Made by a program: the position numbers and the translations under genes. 39,619 nt of DNA from Bacillota bacterium (GTDB lineage Bacteria > Bacillota > DTU025): the NCBI GenBank assembly GCA_028709305.1, contig JAQVXE010000010.1, forward strand, positions 1 to 39,619, read 5' to 3'. Position 1 is the stretch's first letter; each line of letters opens with the position of its first letter. Below the pieces are notes generated by a model. It searched no databases, had not been told where the DNA came from, and saw nothing but the letters and a program-made list of their open reading frames with translations. Below are positions 22,141 through 39,109 of the stretch, in pieces.

Positions 22141-22899
22141 ATGGGGGGCAGTGCCGTGGAAGGCGTTGTACATACTGATGGATTTCGACATAAGCGGTGC
22201 GCATGTCAGGCAAGGCTCATGATAATGTGCCTACTCAGCGCAGCGCTTGTAATATGCAATTTTGCAGTTGCCGACGCTTCTCCGTCAGGTGAAGCGATCG
22301 CGGCAAAGGTGACTGAGAAGCTCAAGAACGTTACTACGCTCCAGGCAGACATCGCATCGGAATTTTCTGATCCTTCTAGTAAGTCTCCCATGAGAATGAC
22401 GATCCGTGTTTCGGCCGACAAGGCTAGCGGCATCACTCGAATGGAGATCATGCAGCATGCAGTCTTCGAAGGGCAAATCATCATTATTGATGTGAAGAAG
22501 GATCTAACCACTGTGTACATGCCCGTCACTGGCCAGGCCTTCCGTGGAAAATCTGCTACCATGGCCGCCCAGCTGGGGTTTGATGCAGGATCGTTTGACC
22601 TCGACGAGCTTCTGTTGCTCGACCTTTCAGAGATGATGAAGTGCAGCTATCTAAAACAAGAGAAGCTGAACAGGCTACCCCACTACGTGCTAGAGACTCG
22701 CGTAGCCCAGAGCCCGAAGGAATACCAGCTTGTGTGGGTCGACTGCGAAACGTACATGATCAAGAAAGTGGAAGCCTACGATTATCAAGACAGGCGAGTC
22801 GCAACAGTAGTTCTGAACAACCTCAAGCTTGATGCGAAGATTGATCCGAGCAAGCTCCGGGAACTTCCTAAAGGTACCCGGATTACCGAAATCAAGTAG
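22141..22899 (+). CDS. LolA-like periplasmic outer-membrane lipoprotein-sorting protein
   Basis: The frame encodes up to 252 residues. A hydrophobic signal segment (about 26-46, ending A-V-A-D-A) precedes a LolA/LppX-type domain: A-K-V-T-E-K-L-K-N-V-T-T-L-Q-A-D-I opens the long strand-helix pair, and the domain ends with W-V-D-C-E-T-Y-M-I-K-K-V-E-A-Y-D, the common 'D..T..I.k...yd' pattern. Such proteins carry lipids or lipoproteins across the periplasm. The exact start is unsure: ATG 22141 is close to the predicted transcription start, a GTG at 22156 has a G-rich site, and ATG 22219 would leave a minimal signal peptide. It leads the operon with the RND permease 29 bases downstream. Confidence 0.75.
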   Translation: MGGSAVEGVVHTDGFRHKRCACQARLMIMCLLSAALVICNFAVADASPSGEAIAAKVTEKLKNVTTLQADIASEFSDPSSKSPMRMTIRVSADKASGITRMEIMQHAVFEGQIIIIDVKKDLTTVYMPVTGQAFRGKSATMAAQLGFDAGSFDLDELLLLDLSEMMKCSYLKQEKLNRLPHYVLETRVAQSPKEYQLVWVDCETYMIKKVEAYDYQDRRVATVVLNNLKLDAKIDPSKLRELPKGTRITEIK

Positions 22900-22928
22900 C
22901 GATCGGGAACCTATTAGGAGGTAGTCTG

Positions 22929-25900
22929 GTGAATATCTCAGAACGTTCAGTAAATCGTCCGGTAACAGTGATTATCCTGGTCGCAGCATGCGTCCTTTTC
23001 GGGTTTCTTTCTCTGAATAGGATCGGACTTGATCTTCTGCCAGAGCTCAATCTCCCAATGGCGGCAGTTGTCACAATCTATCCCAATGCCGACCCTGAGA
23101 CTGTTGAAGGTCTGGTTACAGTCCCAATCGAGCAAGCGCTCAGGTCTGTGAGGAACATAAAGGACGTTACGTCCACTAGCATGGAGAATGTGTCGTTTTG
23201 CTTTTGCGAGTTCAACTGGGGAAGTGACCTTGGTGCCGCCCAAGAGAACATGCGCGTAAAAATCGATACCATGAAGCATCAACTGCCCGAAGGAAGCCAG
23301 AACCCAATCGTAACCTTGCTCGACCCATCGCAGATACCAATGATGAGTGTTACGGTTGGAATGCCGGGGGACGTGGGAGATGTTACCCGGACCACGCAGG
23401 AACTGGTTAAGCCAGCTGTTGAGCGAGTGGGTGGTGTTGCGGGAGTTTCGATAAGCGGTGGAGCTAGCCGTGTCATAAGTGTGGAGTATGACCACGAAAG
23501 TCTGGTAGAGAGCGGACTGAGCCCTGTTCTTCTGCAGCAGTTGATTACTTTTCAGAACTTGTCGGTGCCAGCCGGCGTCGTTGTGGAAGATGGAGTGCGA
23601 TATCAGACCAGGGTTGGGGCGAAGTTCACATCTGCAGATGAGATCGCTGATCTTGCCATCGGACTCAAGACACCTTCTGAAAGCCCGGAGGGCATAGGGG
23701 GATTCCTTGGCCTGTCCTTTTTCATGCCGACCTTCCTCACAATTGGTGACGTCGCCAAAGTTGAAGAGACTTTTGAGGAAGCTGAGGGCTACACACGCGT
23801 CAACGGCAAACCCGCCGTTGTGATGAATGTTTACAAGCAATCAGGCGAGAACACCGTAACCGTAGCCAGGCAGGTTAGAGAGGCCATGGCTCGCCTGGGT
23901 GAGGAAAGCTCAGACATTGAGATAGAGTACGTATTCGATCAATCTACATTCATCACAAACTCAATAAACAACCTTGCTGAAAATGCGGGTCTTGGTGCGC
24001 TTCTTGCCGTAGCAGTTCTCTTTCTGTTCTTGCGCCATGTTGGCAGCACGCTTCTGGTAGGGGTTTCAATTCCGCTTTCAATGGTATTTACTTTCGTCAT
24101 GATGTACGCGTTCAATCTTACGATAAACCTCCTCACTTTGGGCGGATTGGCCTTGGGCATTGGAATGCTGGTCGACAACTCTATCGTGGTGCTGGAGAAT
24201 ATCTTCCGCCGACAAGAGCTAGGAGACTCGCCTCGCTCGGCTGCCATCGAAGGCACGGCAGAGGTTTCGAGGGCTATCACAGCTTCCACGCTTACTACAA
24301 TTGCCGTATTCATTCCCGTGGTATTCATTCAGAGCATGGCGGGGCATATTTTCAGAGACCTTGCCATGACAATTACGTTCTCGCTTTTGGCATCGCTCGT
24401 AGTGGCTCTAACCGTGTTGCCTTTGATGGCAAGCCGTTTTGTGCGAGTTTCAGCATCCTATGTTGAGCGAGCAGAAAGGGATGCAAACCGCAAGGAATCG
24501 CTGGGTGGAATCTACGACCGGATGCTCAATTGGGCCATGTCAAGAAGATGGCTAGTGCTGGGGGCCGTCTCTGCAGTGCTTGTTTTGGCGATCTTCACCT
24601 TCCCCAAACTGGGCACCGAGTTGCTGAAACCGATGGACATGGGAAGGGTGGACATCAGTCTTCACCTTCCTCCAGGGACTCCAGTGGAAGCCACAAATGA
24701 GGTTGCGCTCCGGCTGGAGAAAGAGCTAATGCAGATGGCAGGGGTCGAGAGCATCACTGCTCAAGTCGGATCTTCGGGGAGCGGGGATTTCGTTGCGATG
24801 GCCAGTGATGGCAGTGCAAACCAGGCTTCCTTGGCAGTCAAACTGCTGCGCGAGGGGAAGACGATCGTGCCGCTTGCAAAGGCTGGGGCTGAAATGAGGA
24901 GGGTTCTGAATAGGATTCGGGCAGATTACCCCGATCTCCAGTATTCGGTGGACACGTCGGGCTATGGTGCGCTAACTGGTGGCAGTTCTGACTACCTGAG
25001 CAACAACATAAAACTTGAGGTTTTCGGCACTGACCCAAGAGAAATCTCTGACTATACTGACAGGATAGTGGATAGGCTCCGCCGGGAGCCGGGGCTCGTT
25101 GAGGTTGCATCTTCGTCAAGGGAAACGCAGCCTGTCATCTTGCTTGATGTAAACCGCACTAGGGCGCTCATGGGGGGACTAACAGTTGGCCAGATCGGAC
25201 TTGGGGTTCGCACTGGCATGTTTGGGTCTACGGTAACATACGTAGAACGTAACGGAGAGCTTATTCCTGTTATTGTGAGACCTGCATCAGAAGGAGTGCC
25301 CTCGCTCGAAACTGTTCTGGACATGCCGGTTACGTCCACGATCAGCGCAGGGAGTTTTCTGGATGGGGCTAGCGGGCTTGGGAGCAATGTTTCGGCAGCT
25401 GCGCGGACAGCGTCCAGCTCCATACCGACAATGCTTGCTCCATCTGATGAGGTTTTGGTTGGCAGGGTTGTGACTCCTGAAGTAGTAGAGGGCCCCATAA
25501 CGATAAGCAGGCGCAACGGAAGGCGTTATGGTTCTGTGCAGGTAGCGTCTGAGGGAATGAAGCAATCGCAGGCAGGGGAGTTGGCTCTTTCTGCAGCCCG
25601 AGAGGTTGAGGCGCCTGAGGGCTATTCAGTTGAGCTCGCCGGCACGACCCGTGTTATTAATGAGGCATTTTCCGATCTCAGTCTCGCGGGTTGGCTTGCC
25701 ATAGTCCTGGTCTACATGGTGATGGCCATACAATATGAATCTTTACTTTATCCTCTGATAGTTATGTTTACCCTTCCGCTTGCGGGAATCGGGGCGATAG
25801 GGTTTCTGGCTCTTACAGGTCAAAGCCTTAGCATTACTGCGATAATTGGGCTAATAATACTTGCCGGCATAGTAGTGAACAACGGCATCGTGCTGGTGGA

Positions 25901-26198
25901 TTTCATCAATCAGCTTAAGGCGAGAGGGATGACAACCAGTGAAGCGGTACGCAAAGCGGGCCGAGCGCGTTTGAGGCCGATCCTCATGACTGCACTCACC
26001 ACGATTCTGGGCCTTGTGCCGCTGGCCATCGGCCATGGAGCAGGCTCTGAGCTCCAGCAGCCGCTGGCAATCACGGTAATAGGCGGCCTTGCGACCGCCA
26101 CGTTTCTAACGCTTTTTGTGATACCGATCGTTTACGAACTCATGGATGAGCTTGCCCAGAAGCTGAGCCGCAAAGGGGGCACGGTAATTGAAGGATAG
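22929..26198 (+). CDS. RND-family efflux permease (HAE1 type)
   Basis: A 1089-residue inner-membrane pump of the AcrB-like fold: TM1 (about 11-29), a large periplasmic loop, TM2-6 with G-M-L-V-D416-N417-S-I-V-V-L-E-N, a second loop, and TM7-12 with G-I-V-V-N-N-G-I-V-L-V-D-F. It starts at GTG, 8 bases after AGGAGG. In AcrB the proton relay is Asp407, Asp408 and Lys940; here Asp416 is kept while the others read Asn and Asn, a pattern I believe is shared by many HAE1-like permeases. Neither an adaptor nor a TolC-like gene is adjacent; the neighbours are a LolA-like carrier and a barrel protein. Substrate unknown, drug efflux or lipid export both possible. Confidence 0.9.
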   Translation: MNISERSVNRPVTVIILVAACVLFGFLSLNRIGLDLLPELNLPMAAVVTIYPNADPETVEGLVTVPIEQALRSVRNIKDVTSTSMENVSFCFCEFNWGSDLGAAQENMRVKIDTMKHQLPEGSQNPIVTLLDPSQIPMMSVTVGMPGDVGDVTRTTQELVKPAVERVGGVAGVSISGGASRVISVEYDHESLVESGLSPVLLQQLITFQNLSVPAGVVVEDGVRYQTRVGAKFTSADEIADLAIGLKTPSESPEGIGGFLGLSFFMPTFLTIGDVAKVEETFEEAEGYTRVNGKPAVVMNVYKQSGENTVTVARQVREAMARLGEESSDIEIEYVFDQSTFITNSINNLAENAGLGALLAVAVLFLFLRHVGSTLLVGVSIPLSMVFTFVMMYAFNLTINLLTLGGLALGIGMLVDNSIVVLENIFRRQELGDSPRSAAIEGTAEVSRAITASTLTTIAVFIPVVFIQSMAGHIFRDLAMTITFSLLASLVVALTVLPLMASRFVRVSASYVERAERDANRKESLGGIYDRMLNWAMSRRWLVLGAVSAVLVLAIFTFPKLGTELLKPMDMGRVDISLHLPPGTPVEATNEVALRLEKELMQMAGVESITAQVGSSGSGDFVAMASDGSANQASLAVKLLREGKTIVPLAKAGAEMRRVLNRIRADYPDLQYSVDTSGYGALTGGSSDYLSNNIKLEVFGTDPREISDYTDRIVDRLRREPGLVEVASSSRETQPVILLDVNRTRALMGGLTVGQIGLGVRTGMFGSTVTYVERNGELIPVIVRPASEGVPSLETVLDMPVTSTISAGSFLDGASGLGSNVSAAARTASSSIPTMLAPSDEVLVGRVVTPEVVEGPITISRRNGRRYGSVQVASEGMKQSQAGELALSAAREVEAPEGYSVELAGTTRVINEAFSDLSLAGWLAIVLVYMVMAIQYESLLYPLIVMFTLPLAGIGAIGFLALTGQSLSITAIIGLIILAGIVVNNGIVLVDFINQLKARGMTTSEAVRKAGRARLRPILMTALTTILGLVPLAIGHGAGSELQQPLAITVIGGLATATFLTLFVIPIVYELMDELAQKLSRKGGTVIEG

Positions 26199-27243
26199 CA
26201 AGAAGTGGACCGCCGCGGCGCTACTGCTTATTGTCATATTGCTCGGCTCTTCAGTGGCGGACGCGGCTCAAGTGACGGTGGTGGAGGGGACTCCTGTCTT
26301 TTTTGGAGGTCTGTCGCTTTTGCACTCAGACGATGGCCCGCCAAGCGTCAACCTGGATTGGCTGGGGCTTGCGTCTGACTTGGAGTGGCGGGGCGCTACG
26401 CTCAGATTGGGCGGAGCAGTAAGCCCCAGTTCGCCCGCTTTTCTAGAAGGATCTGCGGCATACACATTAGGCGTTGGGGCTGAGATGGCCAGAGTATTCA
26501 GCCTCATGGCCGCGGCTGAAGGTTCAGGCATGGCCTACTTCCAGGACCTTGGAACTGGGCCCATGGCAGCCGTGGTTGGCCAGGCTACAGTATCCACAGC
26601 CCGCATAGGCCTTAAGGCCGATTTTGGAGCAATATCCAGCGGATTCGACACGCGACCCGCTCGCCTTATCGGACAGGACAACTGGGTTGAGGATCCCGGA
26701 AGGGACCTCGCGGGCAAAGGCTGGATAGATGTGGTCGGAGCTCTCCAGAGTTCTCGCACGAGGGCCGACTCGTGGAGGATAGGATACATGAGGGAGCTTG
26801 GCGAGCCCGATTGGCGATCCGACATAGGCTATATTGCAAGATACAGCCCGGAGGGTCTTGGTGTCTCAATAAGGTTCTATTCCGGCTTGGCTTTTGGAGG
26901 GCCAAGAGTCATGCTGCTGTCGAAGCTGACTTTCCGGGCCGATGTCACAGACAGGTCGGGAGCTGAGATAGACCTTGTTGTGCAGGGAGGATCAGGCTCA
27001 GAACACGCCTGGATCTCCGGAGCCGGGTGGCTTTCACTTGGCGAGAGGGCGGACCTGAGACTGAAGGTTTGCGCGCCTGTCATGAGTGAGCAGAGTTATG
27101 ATGGTCCGGAGCTGTTCCGGCCTATAGATTGGGCTGCTTTCGCTGTAAGCTTGGATTTTCATGAAGGCTTCATCTCCAGTTTGAGTGCGAGATATGACTT
27201 GCGCACTAAGGTGGTCGGTTTGGAACTGGCTTCGAGATTCTGA
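26188..27243 (+). CDS. Secreted beta-rich protein, probable outer-membrane barrel
   Basis: I do not recognise a named family. The 351-residue protein has a signal peptide (K-D-S-K-K-W then a hydrophobic core ending V-A-D-A-A), followed by alternating polar and hydrophobic stretches typical of transmembrane beta-strands, and ends L-E-L-A-S-R-F with the terminal aromatic residue that many outer-membrane proteins use for BAM recognition. The TTG start at 26188 overlaps the 3' end of the RND gene by 11 bases, with a GGGGG upstream, so the two are translationally coupled. It probably acts as the outer-membrane member of this three-gene set. No cysteines are needed for the predicted fold. Confidence 0.65.
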   Translation: MKDSKKWTAAALLLIVILLGSSVADAAQVTVVEGTPVFFGGLSLLHSDDGPPSVNLDWLGLASDLEWRGATLRLGGAVSPSSPAFLEGSAAYTLGVGAEMARVFSLMAAAEGSGMAYFQDLGTGPMAAVVGQATVSTARIGLKADFGAISSGFDTRPARLIGQDNWVEDPGRDLAGKGWIDVVGALQSSRTRADSWRIGYMRELGEPDWRSDIGYIARYSPEGLGVSIRFYSGLAFGGPRVMLLSKLTFRADVTDRSGAEIDLVVQGGSGSEHAWISGAGWLSLGERADLRLKVCAPVMSEQSYDGPELFRPIDWAAFAVSLDFHEGFISSLSARYDLRTKVVGLELASRF

Positions 27244-29876: not shown

Positions 29877-32800
29877 GTGTCGAGATCCTCTATCTTAAGG
29901 CGCGCTTTGCTCATAGGTATTCTTATGGTGATCGTCTTTGCGTTCACTGGCTCTGCCGCGCCAAATCTACCGCTCTCCATCGATATGGGTCCGGATCCAT
30001 TCCCAGTCATCCCTGTTTCCAGGGGGGCGATGGATGTAGACTGGGCGGATGGGGAGGTTCTAGTAAAGCTTAAGGGATACATCTCAGTGGCCGACGTGAA
30101 TTCGGAGGCTGTGGAGAGGGACTTTCGGGCTCTCAATACCAGACTGGGGGCTGAAGTTGTTGAGGCGATTCCCGTAAGCGATATCGCTGATGTTTACAGA
30201 GTCAACATTGCGCCCACCATGTCGGTTGAGGAAGCGGTGCTAATCTATCAGGCTAGTCCATTCGTAGAGTATGCTGAACCCAACTACCTGTGGTACCCGA
30301 ATGCGATGCCCAACGATCGTTTCTTCCAGTTGGGATACATGTATAACATGCATAACATTGGGGACGTGACTGCTACGAGCAGATGGTTCCATGCTCCTCT
30401 GGCCGATGCCGACATAGATGCGCCCGAGGCATGGGATATTCGAACCGATGCATCAGACGTGATCGTATGCGTCATCGACCAGGGCATACAGTATTACCAT
30501 CCCGACCTTGCGCCCAATATGTGGGTGAACGAGGCTGAGCTCTATGGCGAGGACGGAGTGGACGATGACGGCAATGGTTATGTGGACGACATCTATGGGT
30601 GGGACTTCTTCTACGATGACAACACGATCTATCATGAGGACGCGGACGAAGACTACCACGGCACGCACTGCGCTGGAATCATCGGAGCTCGTGGGAACGA
30701 CGCAGTTGCAGGCGGATTCCACGGCGGCGTTGCGGGCGTGGCATGGGACGTCCAGATCATGTCCTGCAAGTTCATAGGCTCCGGCGGCGGCCGAACCAGC
30801 GACGCGATCAAGGCCATCAATTACGCCAAAATGATGGGCGCTACGCTAACCAGCAACTCCTGGGGAGGAGGCGGATACAGCCAGGCTCTTGAGGAGGCAA
30901 TCGCCAACTCAGGAATGCTGTTCATCGCTGCTGCTGGAAACGCAGGCGTGAATAACGACGTGATCCCGCATTACCCGTCTTCTTATGATCTGCCGAACGT
31001 GATTGCGGTAGCAGCGACTGAGTGGAACGACAAGTTGGCTAACTTCTCTTGCTACGGCCCGAACTCGGTAGATATTGGAGCTCCGGGTCATATGATTATC
31101 TCCTGCTATCCAGATGGCGAGACGAGCGTGTGGGCATGGATGGGCGGAACGTCGATGGCAACCCCGCACGTGGCGGGCGCCGCGGCGCTGGTGATCGCCG
31201 AATATCCGCATCTACCCCAATATCCTGGAGCCCCGGGTTGGAAGCCTGGGCAGGAGACAATTAGGGACATTCTTCTGAAATCAGGAGATCCACTGCCAGA
31301 CCTTCTGGGCAGAACAACTACTGGCAGGCGCCTCAACCTGTACAACGCGCTTACCCGTACATATCCGCCTGGCATTGAGTATGCGCGTGCGGATGTGACC
31401 TTTGGAGCGCCACCGCTTGATGTTAGGTTTGAGGCAGCACTGGAGGATGCAAGCAGCGTTGCAAAGTGCTGGTGGGAATTTGGAGAAGAGAAGGTATACG
31501 GCCTAGTCGCGAACGGAAAGCTCGAGGACGAAGGTTCTATGATTGCGTGGTTCTATGCCGAGGGCATAGATGGATCCGTGTCGAAGATGCCAGTGCAGGT
31601 GACTGCGGCTAAGCCGGGCACCATTATCTATGTGGACGATACTGGTGAATTCGATGTTGGAATACCGCTTAGTGTTCTCTTCCTTTGGGCGGCTGAAGAT
31701 GCCGAGATTCCGTATGTGACGGTCAACACTAGATACCCGCTCGGCCTGTCCGAGACTGCGGTGGAAAACCCGATCTTCTGGGATACCGGGTTCACGCGCT
31801 TTGAGGTAGTCTCTCCTTTCGACCAGGAGTTCCTGGCAAGCTTCATGGACAATGGCGGAAGGGTGTTCTTTGCAGCCCCGGGCTACCTGGGTGATATGGG
31901 CCTGGATTGGTTCGGCGCCGACTACTTGCACATGATAGGCGCCTATGGAGTCGATATCCCGATAGACATCTACAAGGGCGTCGAGGGCGATCCCATAACC
32001 GACGGGATCGAGATGGAGTTTCAGGTGATGACTGGCACAGACGACCTCATTGCTCCTGATCTCGTTTCAAGCCCCATACTGACAGGCGCATGGGACTTTA
32101 CGGAAGAGGATGATGAAGAACCGGTCATCATGGATCTTCCGGGAGCCTTGGGCCTGCGATATGCAGACGATACATGTAGGCTCGTCTACTTGGCGTCACC
32201 TTGGTCTTCGCTGATGTATGCGTGGGATGGCTACGATCTGGAGGATCCGGACATCAACACCACGCCATACCTGCTGACCAAGATATATGAGTACCTGATG
32301 GGCGACATCAATATTCCGCCTGCGATCGATAAGGCAGAGGCCAACCTCTACTTTGCCGAGGTTGCGCAGGACATCGTGTTTGCAGGTGAAGCACACGATC
32401 CCGATCCTGTCGAAGATGGCGAAATATTCTATCTGTGGGACTTTGACGATGGAACCATGGCTGACACAGCCCAGGCAACGCATGCCTATGCAGAGGCGGG
32501 CGTGTACTGGCCGACACTGTGGGTTGCAGACACTGAAGGCGAGGTCGTAGGTGCCGAGCTTTGCGTAATCGTGCTCGAAGAGGGGAGCGTCGTCTTCGTA
32601 GATGATGACGAGGGTGAGCCCGATACTGAAGGGTACTTCGAGGATCTCCTTACAAGGCTAGACAAGCAGTTCATCACAGTGGAGCCTTTGGACGTGATCG
32701 GCAACGGCGGGGCTAAGGCCGGTCTTGAGCAGTTCAGAGTGATATGGAACTGCGGACAGTACGGATACCTGGACGACGCTGAACAGGCTGCTGTCGCCGA

Positions 32801-33812
32801 CTTCCTCGACAAGGGCGGACGGCTCTTCCTGATGGGCCCTGAGGTAATGTGGGTGCTCGATCCGGAGGAGAGCGACTTTGCCCGCAACTACTTGCACGTT
32901 GTCGGCAAGGAAGATGATGTTGGCACGAAGAAGGTGACTGGAGTCGCTGGGGATCCCATCTCCGATGGACTTAAGATCACCCTCGACTTCGATAGCCATG
33001 GCTTCGTGGATGGAACCGATTCGCTCGAGCTTGGCGAAGGCGCAATGCCTGTGTTCTTCAACGATCACGGCGAACCTTGCGCTCTCCGATACGAAGGTGA
33101 GCATCGCTTGACCTTCTTCGCCTTCATGTTCGAGGCAATACCGGATGAGGTTCCTGTGGTGCCTACAGCAGAGGGTGAGGAGCCCGAACCGGAACCGCTG
33201 ACGATTCCGATGATGCTGATGGGCACTGTCGTCGATTGGCTCGGGCTGGAGCCTGAGGTTGCGGTGCTTGCTCCTGTAGCCGGGGACGAGTGGTACGGCG
33301 AGAATGACGTCAAGTGGGAGGCAACTCATCCGGAGGATGCGGAGCTCACCATTGCGCTTGCCTACTCATTCGATGATGGCGCCACGTGGACAACGTTCGC
33401 GACTGGCCTCGTGAACGACGGAGTATACAAGTGGGATGTGAGCAAGGCGCTGAGGAGCGGTTCTTGCCTCATGAAGGTCATCGCATCCGATGGCTATGGC
33501 AACTCTGGTGAAGCCATCAGCGGTGAGTTCCTGGTGATCAACGCAGGGGCGAATTCGTTTGTGGCAGGTCCTGTCCCAGCATCCGACGTGGTGAACTTCT
33601 ACGTCAATGCTTCTGGCGAAGCGACGCTATACGTCTATGATGTGGCCGGAAGGCTCGTCTTCTCCGAGACAATAGGAGATGGAGAGTTCTTCTACTCATG
33701 GCCGCTCGTGGACAAGGCTGACAAGCCTCTTGCAAACGGACTGTACCTCTGCTTCATAGTGACAGAAGACGGAGTCAAATCCGATACTGTGCGGCTTGTC
33801 ATCAGCCGCTAA
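29877..33812 (+). CDS. Secreted multidomain subtilisin-family (S8) serine protease with FlgD-like C-terminal tail
   Basis: The 1311-residue protein starts with a signal peptide (R-R-A-L-L-I-G-I to S-A-A), a fervidolysin-like propeptide (about 45-145), and an S8 domain with Asp201 (V-C-V-I-D), His261 (H-G-T-H-C-A-G) and Ser426 (G-T-S-M-A-T-P-H). Then come two copies of a unit: a PKD-like domain (about 498-580 and 815-890) followed by a Rossmann-like module opening with V-D-D and holding N-G-G-R-V-F-F or K-G-G-R-L-F-L. An Ig-like domain (about 1135-1225) and a tail (1227-1311) with V-Y-D-V-A-G-R-L-V-F and N-G-L-Y resemble FlgD-like/type IX secretion sorting domains. The GTG start follows GGGGGG. 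It is followed by a PorV-like gene. Confidence 0.9.
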   Translation: MSRSSILRRALLIGILMVIVFAFTGSAAPNLPLSIDMGPDPFPVIPVSRGAMDVDWADGEVLVKLKGYISVADVNSEAVERDFRALNTRLGAEVVEAIPVSDIADVYRVNIAPTMSVEEAVLIYQASPFVEYAEPNYLWYPNAMPNDRFFQLGYMYNMHNIGDVTATSRWFHAPLADADIDAPEAWDIRTDASDVIVCVIDQGIQYYHPDLAPNMWVNEAELYGEDGVDDDGNGYVDDIYGWDFFYDDNTIYHEDADEDYHGTHCAGIIGARGNDAVAGGFHGGVAGVAWDVQIMSCKFIGSGGGRTSDAIKAINYAKMMGATLTSNSWGGGGYSQALEEAIANSGMLFIAAAGNAGVNNDVIPHYPSSYDLPNVIAVAATEWNDKLANFSCYGPNSVDIGAPGHMIISCYPDGETSVWAWMGGTSMATPHVAGAAALVIAEYPHLPQYPGAPGWKPGQETIRDILLKSGDPLPDLLGRTTTGRRLNLYNALTRTYPPGIEYARADVTFGAPPLDVRFEAALEDASSVAKCWWEFGEEKVYGLVANGKLEDEGSMIAWFYAEGIDGSVSKMPVQVTAAKPGTIIYVDDTGEFDVGIPLSVLFLWAAEDAEIPYVTVNTRYPLGLSETAVENPIFWDTGFTRFEVVSPFDQEFLASFMDNGGRVFFAAPGYLGDMGLDWFGADYLHMIGAYGVDIPIDIYKGVEGDPITDGIEMEFQVMTGTDDLIAPDLVSSPILTGAWDFTEEDDEEPVIMDLPGALGLRYADDTCRLVYLASPWSSLMYAWDGYDLEDPDINTTPYLLTKIYEYLMGDINIPPAIDKAEANLYFAEVAQDIVFAGEAHDPDPVEDGEIFYLWDFDDGTMADTAQATHAYAEAGVYWPTLWVADTEGEVVGAELCVIVLEEGSVVFVDDDEGEPDTEGYFEDLLTRLDKQFITVEPLDVIGNGGAKAGLEQFRVIWNCGQYGYLDDAEQAAVADFLDKGGRLFLMGPEVMWVLDPEESDFARNYLHVVGKEDDVGTKKVTGVAGDPISDGLKITLDFDSHGFVDGTDSLELGEGAMPVFFNDHGEPCALRYEGEHRLTFFAFMFEAIPDEVPVVPTAEGEEPEPEPLTIPMMLMGTVVDWLGLEPEVAVLAPVAGDEWYGENDVKWEATHPEDAELTIALAYSFDDGATWTTFATGLVNDGVYKWDVSKALRSGSCLMKVIASDGYGNSGEAISGEFLVINAGANSFVAGPVPASDVVNFYVNASGEATLYVYDVAGRLVFSETIGDGEFFYSWPLVDKADKPLANGLYLCFIVTEDGVKSDTVRLVISR

Positions 33813-33828
33813 TTGAGGGGGTGACATC

Positions 33829-34722
33829 ATGAAGAAGAAACTGAGTAGTTGGTTTGTTATGGTCGCCCTAGTGGCGATGACAGTTGCCGCGTTGGCGCCA
33901 GCTGCGTACGCTGCGGCAGAGGATCCCGTTGGAACGGCAGCTATCTTCGACATAGGGATGGGAGCTCGAGCCCTAGGAATGGGCGGGGCCTTCGTCGCCG
34001 TTGTTGATGATGGGAATGCTATCTACTACAACCCAGCAGGCCTTGCAGGCGTAGAAGGGCACAAGGTTTCATCCTTGTACTCGAGTCTGCACGGTGCCGG
34101 GAGTTACATCGGCGCGGGCTATGCCCAGGAGAATGTCGGGGTTGGCATAATCGGCCTGATGTCGACGGTGACGGAGAAGGACGAGTACGGAAACCCTGGA
34201 GATGACTTCGGTTACCGCGAGGGTGCCGTAATGGGCGGATATGCGCGGAAGTTCGGGATGTTCTCGATCGGCGGTTCGCTCAAGCTCTACTCCCAGGCGA
34301 TCCCGGACAACAACGGGTTCGGCGTCACAGGAGATATCGGAGCCCTCATCGAAATGCCGTGGATAGAAGGATTCAAGCTGGGAGTGGTTGCCCGCAACCT
34401 GGTCGGAACGGCCAAGTACGGAAGTGGCCACACCGACAAGTTTGATCCGGTATTCGTTGCCGGCGCTTCGATGAAGCCCATTCCGAAGATGACGGTAGCT
34501 GCGGACTTCGACATCACCAGCACAAAGGGTCATGTGGGTGTGGAGTATCAGGTCATACCTGCACTGGCAGTCAGGGCTGGGGGCGCTTTCGCTGAAGATG
34601 GAGACATGAGATTCTCGGCTGGGGCCGGCTTCTCAATCCAGAACTTCACGATTGATTACGCCTATCAGATGCATACTGCGCTGCCGGATTCCCACTGGCT
34701 GTCGTTGGGCGTGTCGTTCTAG
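33829..34722 (+). CDS. PorV/PorQ-like (UPF0164) outer-membrane barrel protein
   Basis: The 297-residue protein has a signal peptide (M-K-K-K-L-S-S-W to A-A-Y-A-A) and then the family opening I-G-M-G-A-R-A-L-G-M-G-G-A-F-V-A-V-V-D-D-G-N-A-I-Y-Y-N-P-A-G-L. This 'gaRa.gMGgA..A..dd..a.yyNPAgl' pattern is shared by PorV/PorQ of type IX secretion and the UPF0164 group related to FadL. The remainder is beta-strand-rich and ends W-L-S-L-G-V-S-F. In T9SS, PorV shuttles cargo between translocon and sortase. The gene lies 16 bases after the subtilase with its FlgD-like tail, and a strong terminator follows. Outer-membrane location is likely; function by family analogy only. Confidence 0.75.
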   Translation: MKKKLSSWFVMVALVAMTVAALAPAAYAAAEDPVGTAAIFDIGMGARALGMGGAFVAVVDDGNAIYYNPAGLAGVEGHKVSSLYSSLHGAGSYIGAGYAQENVGVGIIGLMSTVTEKDEYGNPGDDFGYREGAVMGGYARKFGMFSIGGSLKLYSQAIPDNNGFGVTGDIGALIEMPWIEGFKLGVVARNLVGTAKYGSGHTDKFDPVFVAGASMKPIPKMTVAADFDITSTKGHVGVEYQVIPALAVRAGGAFAEDGDMRFSAGAGFSIQNFTIDYAYQMHTALPDSHWLSLGVSF

Positions 34723-34774: not shown

Positions 34775-34882
34775 TTGAAGTAAGCATCTGGGGCAGAGAA
34801 GCCCACACTGCCATCCCCCTGCAGATGACGGGCAATATGAATGGGCAGTTGATCTGTGCGGGCGGCGTTAGAGGTGATGGAG

Positions 34883-37800
34883 ATGGAGGCCTTCTGCTGT
34901 AGAAGGTGCAGGTCGGGTGGATGCCATGCCTTCCTGCTAGTGTTGTTTGCGGCTGCGGTGGCAGTCCTGATCTTGCTTGGGGCGCCCGCAGGGCACGTAT
35001 ACGCTGAGGAGAATCAGGAAGCTCGCCTTCAAATCGGGGGTGATGTTGAGTTCAAGCTCAGGTCAGCCTGGGGCGATTCTTCCGCCCTTCTTGGAACTGG
35101 CTATACCCCTGGCCGCTTTGAGTTGATGCAGCTCTTGTCACTGAGCGTGCGTGGTCAGGTAGCCCCCGGATTGACGATCTCCGCGAACCTTGATAATCGC
35201 AAAGATGGCAATCTCCAAGTGATGGAGCTGAAGCTTGATGGCGACCCTCTGAAGGGCCGTTTTGGGGGTCTTTCCTTCAGAAGTCAAAACCCCTATACTT
35301 CGTATTCTGCGCGTTTGCGCGGGCTTGAGCTCAGTGCGGAGTTTAGCAAGTTCGCGGTAGGAGCTACGTTCGGCCGCGTGCAGGGGATCGCTGCAAAGAA
35401 GACGTTCCAGGGCAATACAGCCCAGGAGACAATAGTATATGAGCCTCAGGCTCCTTACGGTCCGTCACCTTCAACATCTGGATTTTCAGCATCTCTGGAT
35501 GGAATGGAATACTATCTGCTGTCGGAGCCTTATGATCCAGATTTCATGGGGTGTTGGATACGGTATGACGATGAGGATGAATCCGAAGAAGGCAGAAGCC
35601 TGGAGGAGACCTTGAACCTATGGGATCTGGGTTACTTGTATCTTGAAGATCCAGAGGAGCGCGGGGGACTGTCGGCAGGGAGCAAAGTGCCGTTGACTGT
35701 CGGGCAGTTCGTGACGGTTTCTTCCTTTGAAGAGATGTTGGCTTTGCGGTCTGAGATTCGGGACATTCTGCGAGGCCAGATACAGTCTGCGATACGGTCC
35801 TACAACTCCGAGCACGGACTGACAGGCAGTGATCAGGAGAGATACCCGTTCGTCTACGGGAGCGAAACCGAGGCGGCTTTTCTCGACGACTTGCTTTCGC
35901 ATCACGCTCACATAGTTGCTGGCACGGAGGACGGAGTCGGCATCACAGTCCTGGATGCAAGGGCTGACTCTTACATGCGCACGCGCCTTTATGATCTGGG
36001 CCAGACTGATATTGTCCCTGGATCGGTTGTGGTGGAAGTTCGCAAGGCCGGCAAGTTCCTGCCGGTTGAAGCAGAATTGCCCCTCGTCTTTCAAGTGGCG
36101 TACAATATTGGTGTAGTAGAATTCGATTTTCCGCCAAGCTTCTTTGATGTCTATGATGCGGTGCGCGTCAAGTATCGCCATACAGTGGCCATGGGCATCT
36201 TCAACCTCGGTCTCTCCATTGCCCAGGGAAGTGAGAAGGTCTATCTCAACGATGTGCTGCTTCAGAGGAACACGGACTATACAATCGACTACGAGCTTGG
36301 CATGCTCACTATCCTGAGGATCCTCGGCCCCGATGATGTAGTAAAAGTGGAATACGAGTACTTCAGGGGCCCATTCGGCGCAATGGCTGACTACAAGTCA
36401 AACTTCTACGGCACCACATTCGGTTGGACTCCCTCTGAGAACCTCAACTTGAAGATGGATGTTGCTGTGTACGCAGATGACCCGAAATCGGCCGCGCTGC
36501 CGGAGGCGACACCGGCCATGCCCAATACTCATGCAATCATAGGACTGACCGGGCGATATGATAACAAGGGGCTGAACCTCTCTGCAGATCTAGGCTTCAG
36601 CCATGATCAGTTCCCGTTTGACGACAACCGCAAGGTGAATGCTGCCAACAGGATATCAGGAATCATCGGAGCCGTCGATGCAGAGATGAAATCATACGTC
36701 CTGATTGCCCATGGAGATGGAATCAGCGTTGGCGGAGAAGAGTTCCGCAACTACAGCATAGGCTCTGGGATCGCATCGCCAGCAGTCAAAGGCGTGGCCA
36801 CGTCAGAGGAGAATTGGTTCTTCGCTACGGATGGAGGACTTACTGTATTCGCAGCAACTCCCGGTCCGTCAGGGCAGAACCCCTTTGATTACGTAAGCAA
36901 CTGGCGGAGGATATACATGTCGGCCGGCTTGCCTAGCAACAACCTGACCTCTGTTGTGACCACCCCTTGGAGTGTTTGGGTTGGCACTGCTGACAAGGGT
37001 GTGGCTTCTGCGGATCTGATCGATCTAGAGACATGGACAGTGTACAGAGAGTCTGCTGTGTCAGGCCTGCCGTCTGACGCCATTTCCGCCATTGCCTATG
37101 ACTCAGTTGAGGACCTTGTCCTAATCGGCTCTGAAAAGGGCGTAGCTTGCTTTGGCGGCACCCATTTTGAGCATGAACTCGCCGGGGTAGAGGTGGGGGC
37201 GATTGCATCTGCAGCCAGCGCGGAAGCTGTAGACGGATTCCGCACGTTTGCAGCCGCCGAGGACGGAGTATATGCCAGGGATGATTCTGGCGAATGGAGA
37301 AAGATCCTCGAAGGTTCGCAAGTGAAGGATCCAGAAGCCCTCAGGGTCTGGAACAGGCTTCTATGGATAGGTTGCCCAGACGGCTTGTACGTCTATGACG
37401 GTGTAACGTGTGAAATGGTTGAAGCCACGAGAGGGTACTCCATTACTGCCGTGGGCACTGGCCCAGGGAGCAAATACGAGGGCGGTGAGGTTCTGTGGGC
37501 CGGAACCGCCGGAAGGCCGGCAGGATCCGGAAAGGAGAGCTACAGAATAGCCGTGTTCGAAGTGCTTACGCCGGAGGTAGTGGCTGAGCACGATGGCGAC
37601 ACGCTGGGTGTGGCAGGCCATGACCCGAGGCATTACATTGATATTGCTTCAGACGAGCACACTGCTACAGGCTATGCTGCTAGGGCAACGGCAAGATACA
37701 CGTTGGGATCAGGAAGCGTATACGGGAACTACGAGACTTTGGCACCGGGATTTACGAAGATAGGCCAGACATCGAGGCAGGCTGCGGACATTTGGCGCTT

Positions 37801-39109
37801 GGGCACGCAGTGGCCTATTGGTTCAAGGGTTAATGTGGTTGCCGAGCACTCACAGTCCCGGACCGAAGCGCATCCGGATAAGAACGATGGATCCCCTGGC
37901 AAGGAGGTCCTTGTCATATCAAACAGAGTCGGAGGAACCCTCGACATCGGTCCCAAAGTAGATATTTCATATACAGTATCGCAAGTAGATGATAATGAGG
38001 CCGAAGGGTACGAACGTGAGGAACGCACTTTATCTGTCACAGGGCGTCAGAGTTTCTTTGAAAACAAGCTTACACTGGGCGCCGGTTACGAGACTGTGCA
38101 AAGCGAGAATCTGATGAGGCCCAGCAGTTCGTATCTGCAAGTGAACTTGAGGGGGGACGCCACACTCAAGATAGATGCTCTTTCCGTGTCAGCCTTGTAT
38201 CGAAAGCCTCTGAAGACTGTGGCTCCTGGAGGATCAGATGAGCGAGTTACAGGACTCGAGGAGGTCAGCCTCAATGCTCAATGGGCGAAGCAGCTGGGGC
38301 CGATAGCTCTGAGAGCGTATTACAGGCAGACCATGCGTGACGATATTGCTACAGACCGAAGATTCGATGACAAGAGAGCTGAGATTCGGGCTACATTACC
38401 AGTACTGTCGTTTAAGGAGAATGCCTTAACTCCGAGTGCCGTTTTGAAGTGGGAGAATACTGTGCCCTTCTCGGGACAGGCAAGGCAGGGCATCACCGCG
38501 CAAGGGAGCATCTCAGGGAACTTGGGCGGTTTCCGGACCTCTTCTGGAGTGAACTTGAGGAGAACAGAGTATCCTGGCATGGAGAAGCTTACTCTTGATA
38601 CAGAGGTCTTCACCACACTTAGTTCAACGACACGTGGCAAGTTTGTGCCTCAATTCGATATTAGGTGGAAGAGATCCAGCTCAAAAAGGGCGGACTTGGG
38701 CGTTGCTGCAAGCGATTCTCTGACAGCGACAGCCCGCACCATATGGACTCCTGTTCAAGGCTTGAGCAATGTAGCATCAGTAGCATACTCACTCACATCG
38801 TCATCTGGCCCTATGGGCATGCAGAAGCATTCAGCCAGCATTCAGGATACAGTCGACTACAGGGCGAGCGAGAAGGTTACCATGACCGGAGAGGCGTCCA
38901 TCAGATCGACAGCCTCCGAGCTTCAGGCACTCGCTGGAGGGGATGGTGCGGACATCAGGGGAGCTCTCAAGAGCGGGCTTCGCTACAGGATCAGTGACAT
39001 GTGGTCGCTTGGGGCTTCGGTGGGCTATCATGTGCATAAGCTCCCGGCAAGTCAAGACGGATTCGCACACGGACTGACTTTGGAGGCAGGGCTGAGGGCT
39101 ACGTTCTAG
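34883..39109 (+). CDS. Very large outer-membrane protein with SprA-like motif and internal propeller-like region
   Basis: The 1408-residue protein has an N-terminal signal region (basic C-C-R-R-C-R-S, then F-L-L-V-L-F-A-A-A-V-A-V-L-I-L-L) and a beta-strand-rich part. Around 450-495 lies S-E-K-V-Y-L-N-D-V-L-L-Q-R-N-T-D-Y-T-I-D-Y followed by a G-M-L-T-I-L strand, a pattern I know from SprA/Sov-type T9SS translocons and related surface proteins. Residues about 630-890 contain repeats with W-F-F-A-T-D-G-G-L and W-V-G-T-A-D-K-G, like two-component-regulator propeller blades. The last 450 residues are amphipathic strands ending L-R-A-T-F. ATG 34883 lies 8 bases after GAGG; a GTG at 34856 is weaker. 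Its exact function is unknown. Confidence 0.7.
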   Translation: MEAFCCRRCRSGGCHAFLLVLFAAAVAVLILLGAPAGHVYAEENQEARLQIGGDVEFKLRSAWGDSSALLGTGYTPGRFELMQLLSLSVRGQVAPGLTISANLDNRKDGNLQVMELKLDGDPLKGRFGGLSFRSQNPYTSYSARLRGLELSAEFSKFAVGATFGRVQGIAAKKTFQGNTAQETIVYEPQAPYGPSPSTSGFSASLDGMEYYLLSEPYDPDFMGCWIRYDDEDESEEGRSLEETLNLWDLGYLYLEDPEERGGLSAGSKVPLTVGQFVTVSSFEEMLALRSEIRDILRGQIQSAIRSYNSEHGLTGSDQERYPFVYGSETEAAFLDDLLSHHAHIVAGTEDGVGITVLDARADSYMRTRLYDLGQTDIVPGSVVVEVRKAGKFLPVEAELPLVFQVAYNIGVVEFDFPPSFFDVYDAVRVKYRHTVAMGIFNLGLSIAQGSEKVYLNDVLLQRNTDYTIDYELGMLTILRILGPDDVVKVEYEYFRGPFGAMADYKSNFYGTTFGWTPSENLNLKMDVAVYADDPKSAALPEATPAMPNTHAIIGLTGRYDNKGLNLSADLGFSHDQFPFDDNRKVNAANRISGIIGAVDAEMKSYVLIAHGDGISVGGEEFRNYSIGSGIASPAVKGVATSEENWFFATDGGLTVFAATPGPSGQNPFDYVSNWRRIYMSAGLPSNNLTSVVTTPWSVWVGTADKGVASADLIDLETWTVYRESAVSGLPSDAISAIAYDSVEDLVLIGSEKGVACFGGTHFEHELAGVEVGAIASAASAEAVDGFRTFAAAEDGVYARDDSGEWRKILEGSQVKDPEALRVWNRLLWIGCPDGLYVYDGVTCEMVEATRGYSITAVGTGPGSKYEGGEVLWAGTAGRPAGSGKESYRIAVFEVLTPEVVAEHDGDTLGVAGHDPRHYIDIASDEHTATGYAARATARYTLGSGSVYGNYETLAPGFTKIGQTSRQAADIWRLGTQWPIGSRVNVVAEHSQSRTEAHPDKNDGSPGKEVLVISNRVGGTLDIGPKVDISYTVSQVDDNEAEGYEREERTLSVTGRQSFFENKLTLGAGYETVQSENLMRPSSSYLQVNLRGDATLKIDALSVSALYRKPLKTVAPGGSDERVTGLEEVSLNAQWAKQLGPIALRAYYRQTMRDDIATDRRFDDKRAEIRATLPVLSFKENALTPSAVLKWENTVPFSGQARQGITAQGSISGNLGGFRTSSGVNLRRTEYPGMEKLTLDTEVFTTLSSTTRGKFVPQFDIRWKRSSSKRADLGVAASDSLTATARTIWTPVQGLSNVASVAYSLTSSSGPMGMQKHSASIQDTVDYRASEKVTMTGEASIRSTASELQALAGGDGADIRGALKSGLRYRISDMWSLGASVGYHVHKLPASQDGFAHGLTLEAGLRATF

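Follow-up and report, generated by a model that had tools for sequence, protein, structure and literature searches.

What kind of protein carries a propeller-like domain between two barrel-like halves, and what could such a protein do in the outer membrane of a member of the Bacillota? The question is raised by a gene at positions 34883-39109 of a contig of 39,619 nucleotides (JAQVXE010000010.1, assembly GCA_028709305.1; the whole stretch is called the window below), which encodes a protein of 1408 amino acids in a single open frame on the plus strand with the stop codon at 39107-39109. Judged from its sequence, this protein is a divergent homologue of SprA/Sov and not a member of the TIGR04189 equivalog, and its propeller belongs to the superfamily of the hybrid two-component sensors and PorZ. 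We consider it probable that it is the channel through which a type-IX-like secretion system moves cargo across the outer membrane of such a member of the Bacillota, with the propeller built in as a cap or docking surface.

Two candidate starts are available for the frame, GTG 34856 and ATG 34883. Because a Shine-Dalgarno-like sequence (GAGGTGAT at 34871-34878 on the plus strand, a good match by eye) precedes ATG 34883, this codon was taken as the start; the first-pass annotation of the locus, which had been made from the letters and their open frames, thus probably started the protein correctly. Residue numbers count from this codon unless stated otherwise. Inspection of the N-terminus by eye revealed no lipobox, and no Pfam family was detected in the protein at E <= 1.

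The main clue to the identity of the protein is a SprA-like motif near residue 450, which the first-pass annotation had rightly seen but had handled as a mere detail. The NCBIfam model TIGR04189 (SprA/Sov) matches residues 428-492 with an E value of 3.8e-10 and 37.6 bits, and this is the only match of the model in the genome. At E <= 0.01 it also matches all 19 proteins of our alignment, that is the window protein and 18 others, from which the profile used below was made. As 37.6 bits compare with a cut-off of 200 bits, which was reached in none of 61 genomes, we use the term SprA homologue and do not assign the protein to the equivalog.

Outside the motif, the N-terminal half carries the resemblance. 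Its profile (A5) retrieved SprA alone from the PDB (two sequences, E 1.7e-10; next match E 0.76), matching SprA 148-263 and then 695-809 in the same order, the latter stretch with an i-Evalue of 1.2e-4. In a Foldseek search with the model of the N-terminal half, which is not independent of the sequence as Foldseek also weighs sequence letters, the SprA structures 8gl6, 8gl8 and 6h3i ranked on top (E 5.9e-9, 2.8e-8 and 1.7e-5), the next non-SprA chain having an E value of 0.012. Superposition by VIA-align showed the N-terminal half to follow SprA 132-845 with a Z score of 12.8 and a root-mean-square deviation (rmsd) of 8.1 over 231 residues. Homology to SprA beyond the one motif is therefore limited to the N-terminal half, and the C-terminal half fits merely as a long row of barrel-like strands. 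An identity as LptD or TonB receptor was rejected: such proteins make up much of the listed Foldseek matches of the whole model, as may happen with any large barrel, and the searches with the N-terminal half rank SprA first. The best 50 rows of the whole-model VIA-align search are filled by the propeller and include no SprA row, which has no bearing against SprA.

The inserted domain was recognised by several methods. A single-sequence search of the PDB with the window protein returned only 4a2l (E 0.082). The profile of the 19 proteins retrieved propellers of hybrid two-component sensors with E values of 1.3e-19 (4a2l), 1.4e-17 (3v9f) and 3.2e-13, followed by designed propellers and then by PorZ (5m11, E 0.0015). 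In the AlphaFold2 model, which covers residues 218-1417 in the numbering from the GTG codon and was built from 10 sequences with a mean predicted local distance difference test score (pLDDT) of 61.4, the propeller is the best-modelled part, its ten-residue blocks lying mostly at pLDDT 78-92 with weaker blocks of 52-68 mainly in the first third. VIA-align superposed this part on RACK1 (4aow; Z 27.3, rmsd 2.6 over 262 residues), which we take to have seven blades, on BT4673 (3va6; Z 27.3 over 266 residues) and on 7big, a designed protein titled '7-bladed' (Z 26.3). Among the best 50 matches, Z ranged from 25.8 to 27.5 with 253-268 aligned residues, one loose row excepted.

Seven blade motifs, spaced 38-53 residues apart, were likewise found in the sequence. 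A blade pattern, written after the motifs had been seen, matched six times in the propeller segment and twice more in the remaining 1107 residues; in 5000 shuffles it matched 0.3 times on average and never as often as six times. The earlier proposal of a sensor-type propeller inside a barrel-like chain is thus borne out by profile, model and superposition, and the seven blades lie within the six to eight that had been expected; its extent had been put at about 260 residues and is in fact about 315. Hybrid sensors (BT4663, 4a2l; BT3049, 3v9f; BT4673, 3ott) provide the best sequence matches, and 3va6, 3ott and 3v9f are among the best 50 structural matches. In contrast to these sensors, barrel-like halves flank the propeller here and no kinase or receiver domain was found with Pfam at E <= 1. 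A 585-residue frame in another genome (L073, G262:C45:67540-69036; G and L numbers denote genomes and loci) gives three matches to the propeller part of the profile A1 and none elsewhere, and is possibly a stand-alone propeller protein.

The same domain order, a propeller between barrel-like halves, recurs in 18 of the 19 aligned proteins, in which the stretch between the halves measures 323-431 residues. The exception is the protein of locus L009 (genome G023), which has 1033 residues, matches both halves with only 10 residues between them and lacks the propeller; searched alone against the PDB by phmmer it gave no match at E <= 10. In trees of 19 and 21 rows L009 stands on a long branch, as do the two outgroups, and gain and loss of the propeller are not separated. 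One genome assembled as a single contig (G196) holds two copies of the propeller-bearing protein (L079 and L080), and near both of them lie a PorV-like gene and a match to the sorting domain.

On which side of the membrane would the propeller lie? C-terminal to it the AlphaFold2 model predicts 25 strands of at least 10 residues (mean 13), and the chain ends in F, as the first-pass annotation had stated, in 18 of the 19 aligned proteins. The C-terminus of known outer-membrane barrels is periplasmic. With an odd number of strands the propeller would therefore lie opposite the C-terminus, on the outside. Consistent with this, the loops on the propeller side are longer (mean 8.3 versus 4.1 residues, Mann-Whitney p 0.004), and a weak trend in the same direction is seen in how much the loops differ in length from protein to protein in the alignment of 19 (p 0.078). 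The barrel-like parts of the N-terminal half comprise eight strands of at least 10 residues and five shorter ones in its own model (mean pLDDT 46.9), and the last four strands before the propeller, joined by turns of 2, 15 and 5 residues, also fit a propeller on the outer side. Taken together, the models suggest that the propeller most likely sits on the extracellular face, in a turn between two barrel strands. A plug in the pore, one of three roles proposed earlier, is not supported, as loop lengths and strand parity in a model with weak stretches favour the outer face.

The genes next to the SprA homologue point to secretion. Directly upstream lie a PorV-family gene and the gene for a subtilase with a type A sorting domain (TIGR04183; 21.4 bits in one search and 27.2 in another, cut-off 23), so that two parts of a type IX system, a PorV-family shuttle above the cut-off of NF033709 and cargo with a type A C-terminal domain, were detected. 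In the whole genome six sorting-domain genes exceed the cut-off, and PorV-family matches occur in seven genes, four of them over the cut-off and one very weak; a PorV-like gene is located directly 3' of five of the six sorting-domain genes. Of the five other candidate cargoes, two were analysed for domains: one, of 3022 residues, has a subtilase domain and seven PKD stretches, and the other, of 992 residues, an M6 peptidase. An Omp85 protein is also encoded in the genome (E 5.3e-49), and outer-membrane assembly is thus present.

The association extends to related genomes. Of the 398 genomes of the phylum, 29 matched profile A1, and the 23 with a match at E <= 1e-50 were defined as the family (left out were G084, G157, G178, G262, G352 and G392); three of them are single contigs (G196, G311, G372). 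PorV (NF033709) matches 69 genomes, namely 22 of the 23 in the family, all except G010 (77% complete), and 47 of the 375 others; matches over the cut-off occur in 17 genomes, 14 in the family plus G006, G012 and G303. The sorting domain was detected in 40 genomes, 19 of the 23 in the family (all except G009, G010, G011 and G210) versus 21 of the 375 others. Of the 51 sorting-domain matches in the family, at least 38 are followed by a PorV gene that lies no more than 1.5 kb downstream and has the same orientation, versus at least 3 of the 24 matches elsewhere (G006, G043, G178). At 19 loci from 18 genomes (L078-L096), the PorV-like gene is a direct neighbour of the SprA homologue in 11 cases and lies elsewhere in the stretch in three (L078, L080, L087); it was not found at the other five (L081, L083, L091, L092 and L094, of which L083 is a short contig). 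L091 and L092, from G009 and G011, encode the most divergent propeller-bearing relatives, and by eye a DegV-like frame adjoins the gene in G011.

The named relatives, seven loci in six metagenome-assembled genomes (MAGs), are labelled Bacillota, Firmicutes or Clostridia bacterium, and one of them Pseudomonadota. At this last locus (L047, JAKOVB010000015.1) the gene is immediately preceded by a PorV-like gene, and in the tree it clusters with L044, from a Bacillota MAG, inside the clade of the window protein; its label may reflect mislabelling or transfer. The group presumably is, or is near, the class Limnochordia, members of which are described as having an outer membrane (PMC11456536).

We infer the transport step from homology and genetic linkage, and the task of the propeller from its place, presumably outside, and its kin. 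The SprA-like barrel would receive, from the periplasmic side, exported proteases that carry a sorting domain at the C-terminus; these would bind the PorV-family shuttle encoded next door and exit laterally together with it, as in Flavobacterium. There, according to PMC10994853, the C-terminal domain of the cargo binds PorV loops inside the SprA barrel, the cargo is thought to exit by a lateral opening and SprA is capped on the outside. The seven-bladed propeller of the PorZ/sensor superfamily, presumably inserted where two strands of the barrel are joined by a turn on the extracellular side, would probably form the outer cap or a docking surface that holds cargo, shuttle or a surface glycan, a job done in Porphyromonas by the separate protein PorZ. 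Of the three roles proposed in the first-pass annotation, the cargo-docking platform comes nearest to this mechanism, given a SprA homologue beside PorV-family and sorting-domain cargo genes; a receptor surface is conceivable.

Several observations weigh against a type-IX-like translocon of this build. TIGR04189 falls short of its cut-off, the SprA 148-263 stretch is weak by itself (i-Evalue 0.26), and a third stretch shared by the N-terminal half and SprA is out of order (2.4 bits). The profile of the C-terminal half did not match SprA in the PDB (best E 0.075). The N-terminal half, folded alone with 8 sequences, gave the poor model mentioned above; with it, the SprA entry 6h3j ranks only 10th in Foldseek (E 0.038), and the three SprA superpositions of VIA-align are loose (rmsd 8.1 to 14.0) and, with Z 12.8, 12.0 and 12.0, barely above a porin at 11.1. 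A SprA/Sov barrel has 36 strands; here 25 are predicted after the propeller, some at low pLDDT, and 8 long and 5 short ones before it, where the weak model makes the number, and with it a total of 36, uncertain. The parity is likewise uncertain: in the part C-terminal to the propeller, the 10th and 11th strands lie in a stretch below pLDDT 50 and the first strand begins in another. With regard to the other components, no GldM was found (TIGR03517, E 0.1; among the control genomes it gave one sub-threshold match only), and no PorU sortase (Peptidase_C25, PF01364), which no control genome matched either. G009 and G011 have no sorting-domain match and their PorV lies about 41 kb away, and in G005 a PorV gene is absent from the locus, the genome as a whole giving no more than weak matches (best E 2.5e-4). 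Finally, the genomes are kin and not independent, so that p-values for the linkage are too small and overstate it.

Among the alternatives, the one that survives best is a special case of the translocon proposed here: the propeller could be a built-in PorZ, holding a glycolipid or glycan of the cell surface for attachment to the cargo once this has been exported. The PorZ model NF052228 matches 8 of the 19 aligned proteins (best E 3.2e-10), and PorZ, which according to PMC8545088 has two propeller domains and, in a complex that also contains PorV and PorQ, presents anionic lipopolysaccharide to PorU, the sortase, shares the propeller superfamily and, as presumed for the window protein, the outer face of the outer membrane. 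However, the hybrid sensors match the propeller better than PorZ does (1.3e-19 versus 0.0015), and in the window protein NF052228 reaches only E 0.036 and 12.5 bits against a cut-off of 260. PorZ is furthermore a separate protein with two propellers and its own C-terminal sorting domain, whereas here a single propeller lies inside the candidate translocon, the second propeller and the sorting domain are absent and the C-terminus consists of barrel-like strands. Taking also into account that no PorU-type sortase was detected, in the window genome or in the controls, a built-in PorZ seems rather unlikely.

A SprA-derived barrel that no longer transports cargo and acts as a surface receptor or adhesin, its propeller binding a ligand such as a polysaccharide, would agree with the ligand-sensing domains being the best sequence matches of the propeller, with the motor protein not having been found and with G009 and G011, which carry the gene and have no sorting-domain match. 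Against this, the genome contains no SprA-like match other than this protein although it has six sorting-domain genes and six or more of the PorV type, and the gene stands directly behind a cargo/PorV pair, PorV being a direct neighbour at 11 of the 19 loci; we therefore regard such a receptor as decidedly unlikely. Least probable of all is that only a small domain with the GSE-VYLN-DYTIDY motif is common with SprA and that an unrelated barrel of the porin or LptD kind makes up the remainder, since, despite weak matches of the motif to phage tail models (NF052337, E 0.0024), the LptD and TonB receptors beside SprA in the whole-model Foldseek list and the porins close behind it in VIA-align, profile positions 40-150, far from the motif, also match SprA in order, although weakly on their own, and Foldseek ranks three SprA entries well above all other barrels for the N-terminal half.

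Compared with SprA of Flavobacterium johnsoniae (6h3i, 8gl6, 8gl8), the window protein thus shares collinearity over SprA 132-845, long barrel-like strands, a neighbouring gene of the PorV family and a genome that also encodes proteins with the type A sorting domain. It differs in its size (1408 versus 2403 amino acids), in the propeller inserted after the region that matches SprA up to about residue 845, in a C-terminal half not recognisable by sequence, in its host, assigned to the Bacillota from the named relatives, and in the GldM that was not found. Short proteins with the SprA motif were also detected in G157 (805 amino acids; L097, 9682-12096) and G178 (L098, 9088-12187, the copy extending across two frames). 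They share the two N-terminal stretches in order and a PorV-like frame directly upstream, but lack a propeller match and are much shorter; the 805-residue protein has a FlgD_ig/CHU_C-like domain near its N-terminus.

Table 1. Features of the window in and next to the gene for the SprA homologue.
Feature	Position	Strand	Basis
SprA/Sov-like outer-membrane protein with inserted propeller	34883..39109	+	open frame; SprA homology
Probable signal peptide, cleavage after ...GHVYA	34883..35005	+	translation, by eye
N-terminal half, collinear with SprA 132-845	35015..36610	+	profile, Foldseek, VIA-align
TIGR04189 (SprA/Sov) motif	36164..36358	+	NCBIfam model match
Seven-bladed propeller, hybrid-sensor/PorZ superfamily	36635..37579	+	profile, model, VIA-align, blade motifs
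C-terminal half, 25 predicted strands of at least 10 residues, terminal F	37670..39106	+	AlphaFold2 model
PorV/PorQ-family outer-membrane protein, candidate shuttle	33829..34722	+	NF033709, E 1e-28, 100.9 bits, cut-off 90
Secreted subtilase (Peptidase_S8), candidate cargo; PKD domain, sorting domain at the C-terminus	29877..33812	+	Pfam; TIGR04183
Type IX type A C-terminal domain (TIGR04183) at the subtilase end	33570..33782	+	profile match

Elsewhere in the window, a head-to-tail group at 22141-27243 encodes a LolA-like protein (E 1.2e-5, below the cut-off), an AcrB-type resistance-nodulation-division pump (ACR_tran, E 1.6e-221) and a 351-residue protein that has no Pfam match and looks like an outer-membrane barrel by eye, its frame starting inside the end of the pump gene. 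The minus strand encodes a LysM plus GH18 protein at 1295-2365.

What is new here is the combination of a propeller and a SprA homologue, one that scores under the cut-off of the equivalog, in a single chain. Type IX genes are described as absent outside the Fibrobacteres-Chlorobi-Bacteroidetes (FCB) phyla (PMC11285876), as found only in Bacteroidetes (PMC4793230) and as occurring in the FCB superphylum (PMC11205867). Among the titles and abstract beginnings listed, which did not extend to subscription journals and preprints, there was no report of type IX secretion in Firmicutes, Bacillota or Limnochordia, or of a propeller-bearing SprA; one of the papers listed concerns the transfer of type IX components (PMC7323717).

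Outer-membrane-bearing Bacillota may even have a type IX system of their own, with a SprA-derived translocon that contains its cap or attachment propeller, PorV shuttles that each belong to one protease, some of these proteases being giant, and a power supply that differs from the GldL/GldM motor of the Bacteroidota; we put this forward tentatively and would not yet favour it. Cargo genes here often have a PorV paralogue to themselves, whereas in Flavobacterium a single PorV serves all type A cargo (PMC12618676). If true, a set of SprA, PorV and cargo in Bacillota with an outer membrane would mean that this export route crosses phylum boundaries, whether it is anciently inherited or was transferred. 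A propeller in the chain of the channel itself, missing in one relative, would furthermore be a clue to what may cover the SprA pore at its mouth and to the reason for which the same fold is used by PorZ.

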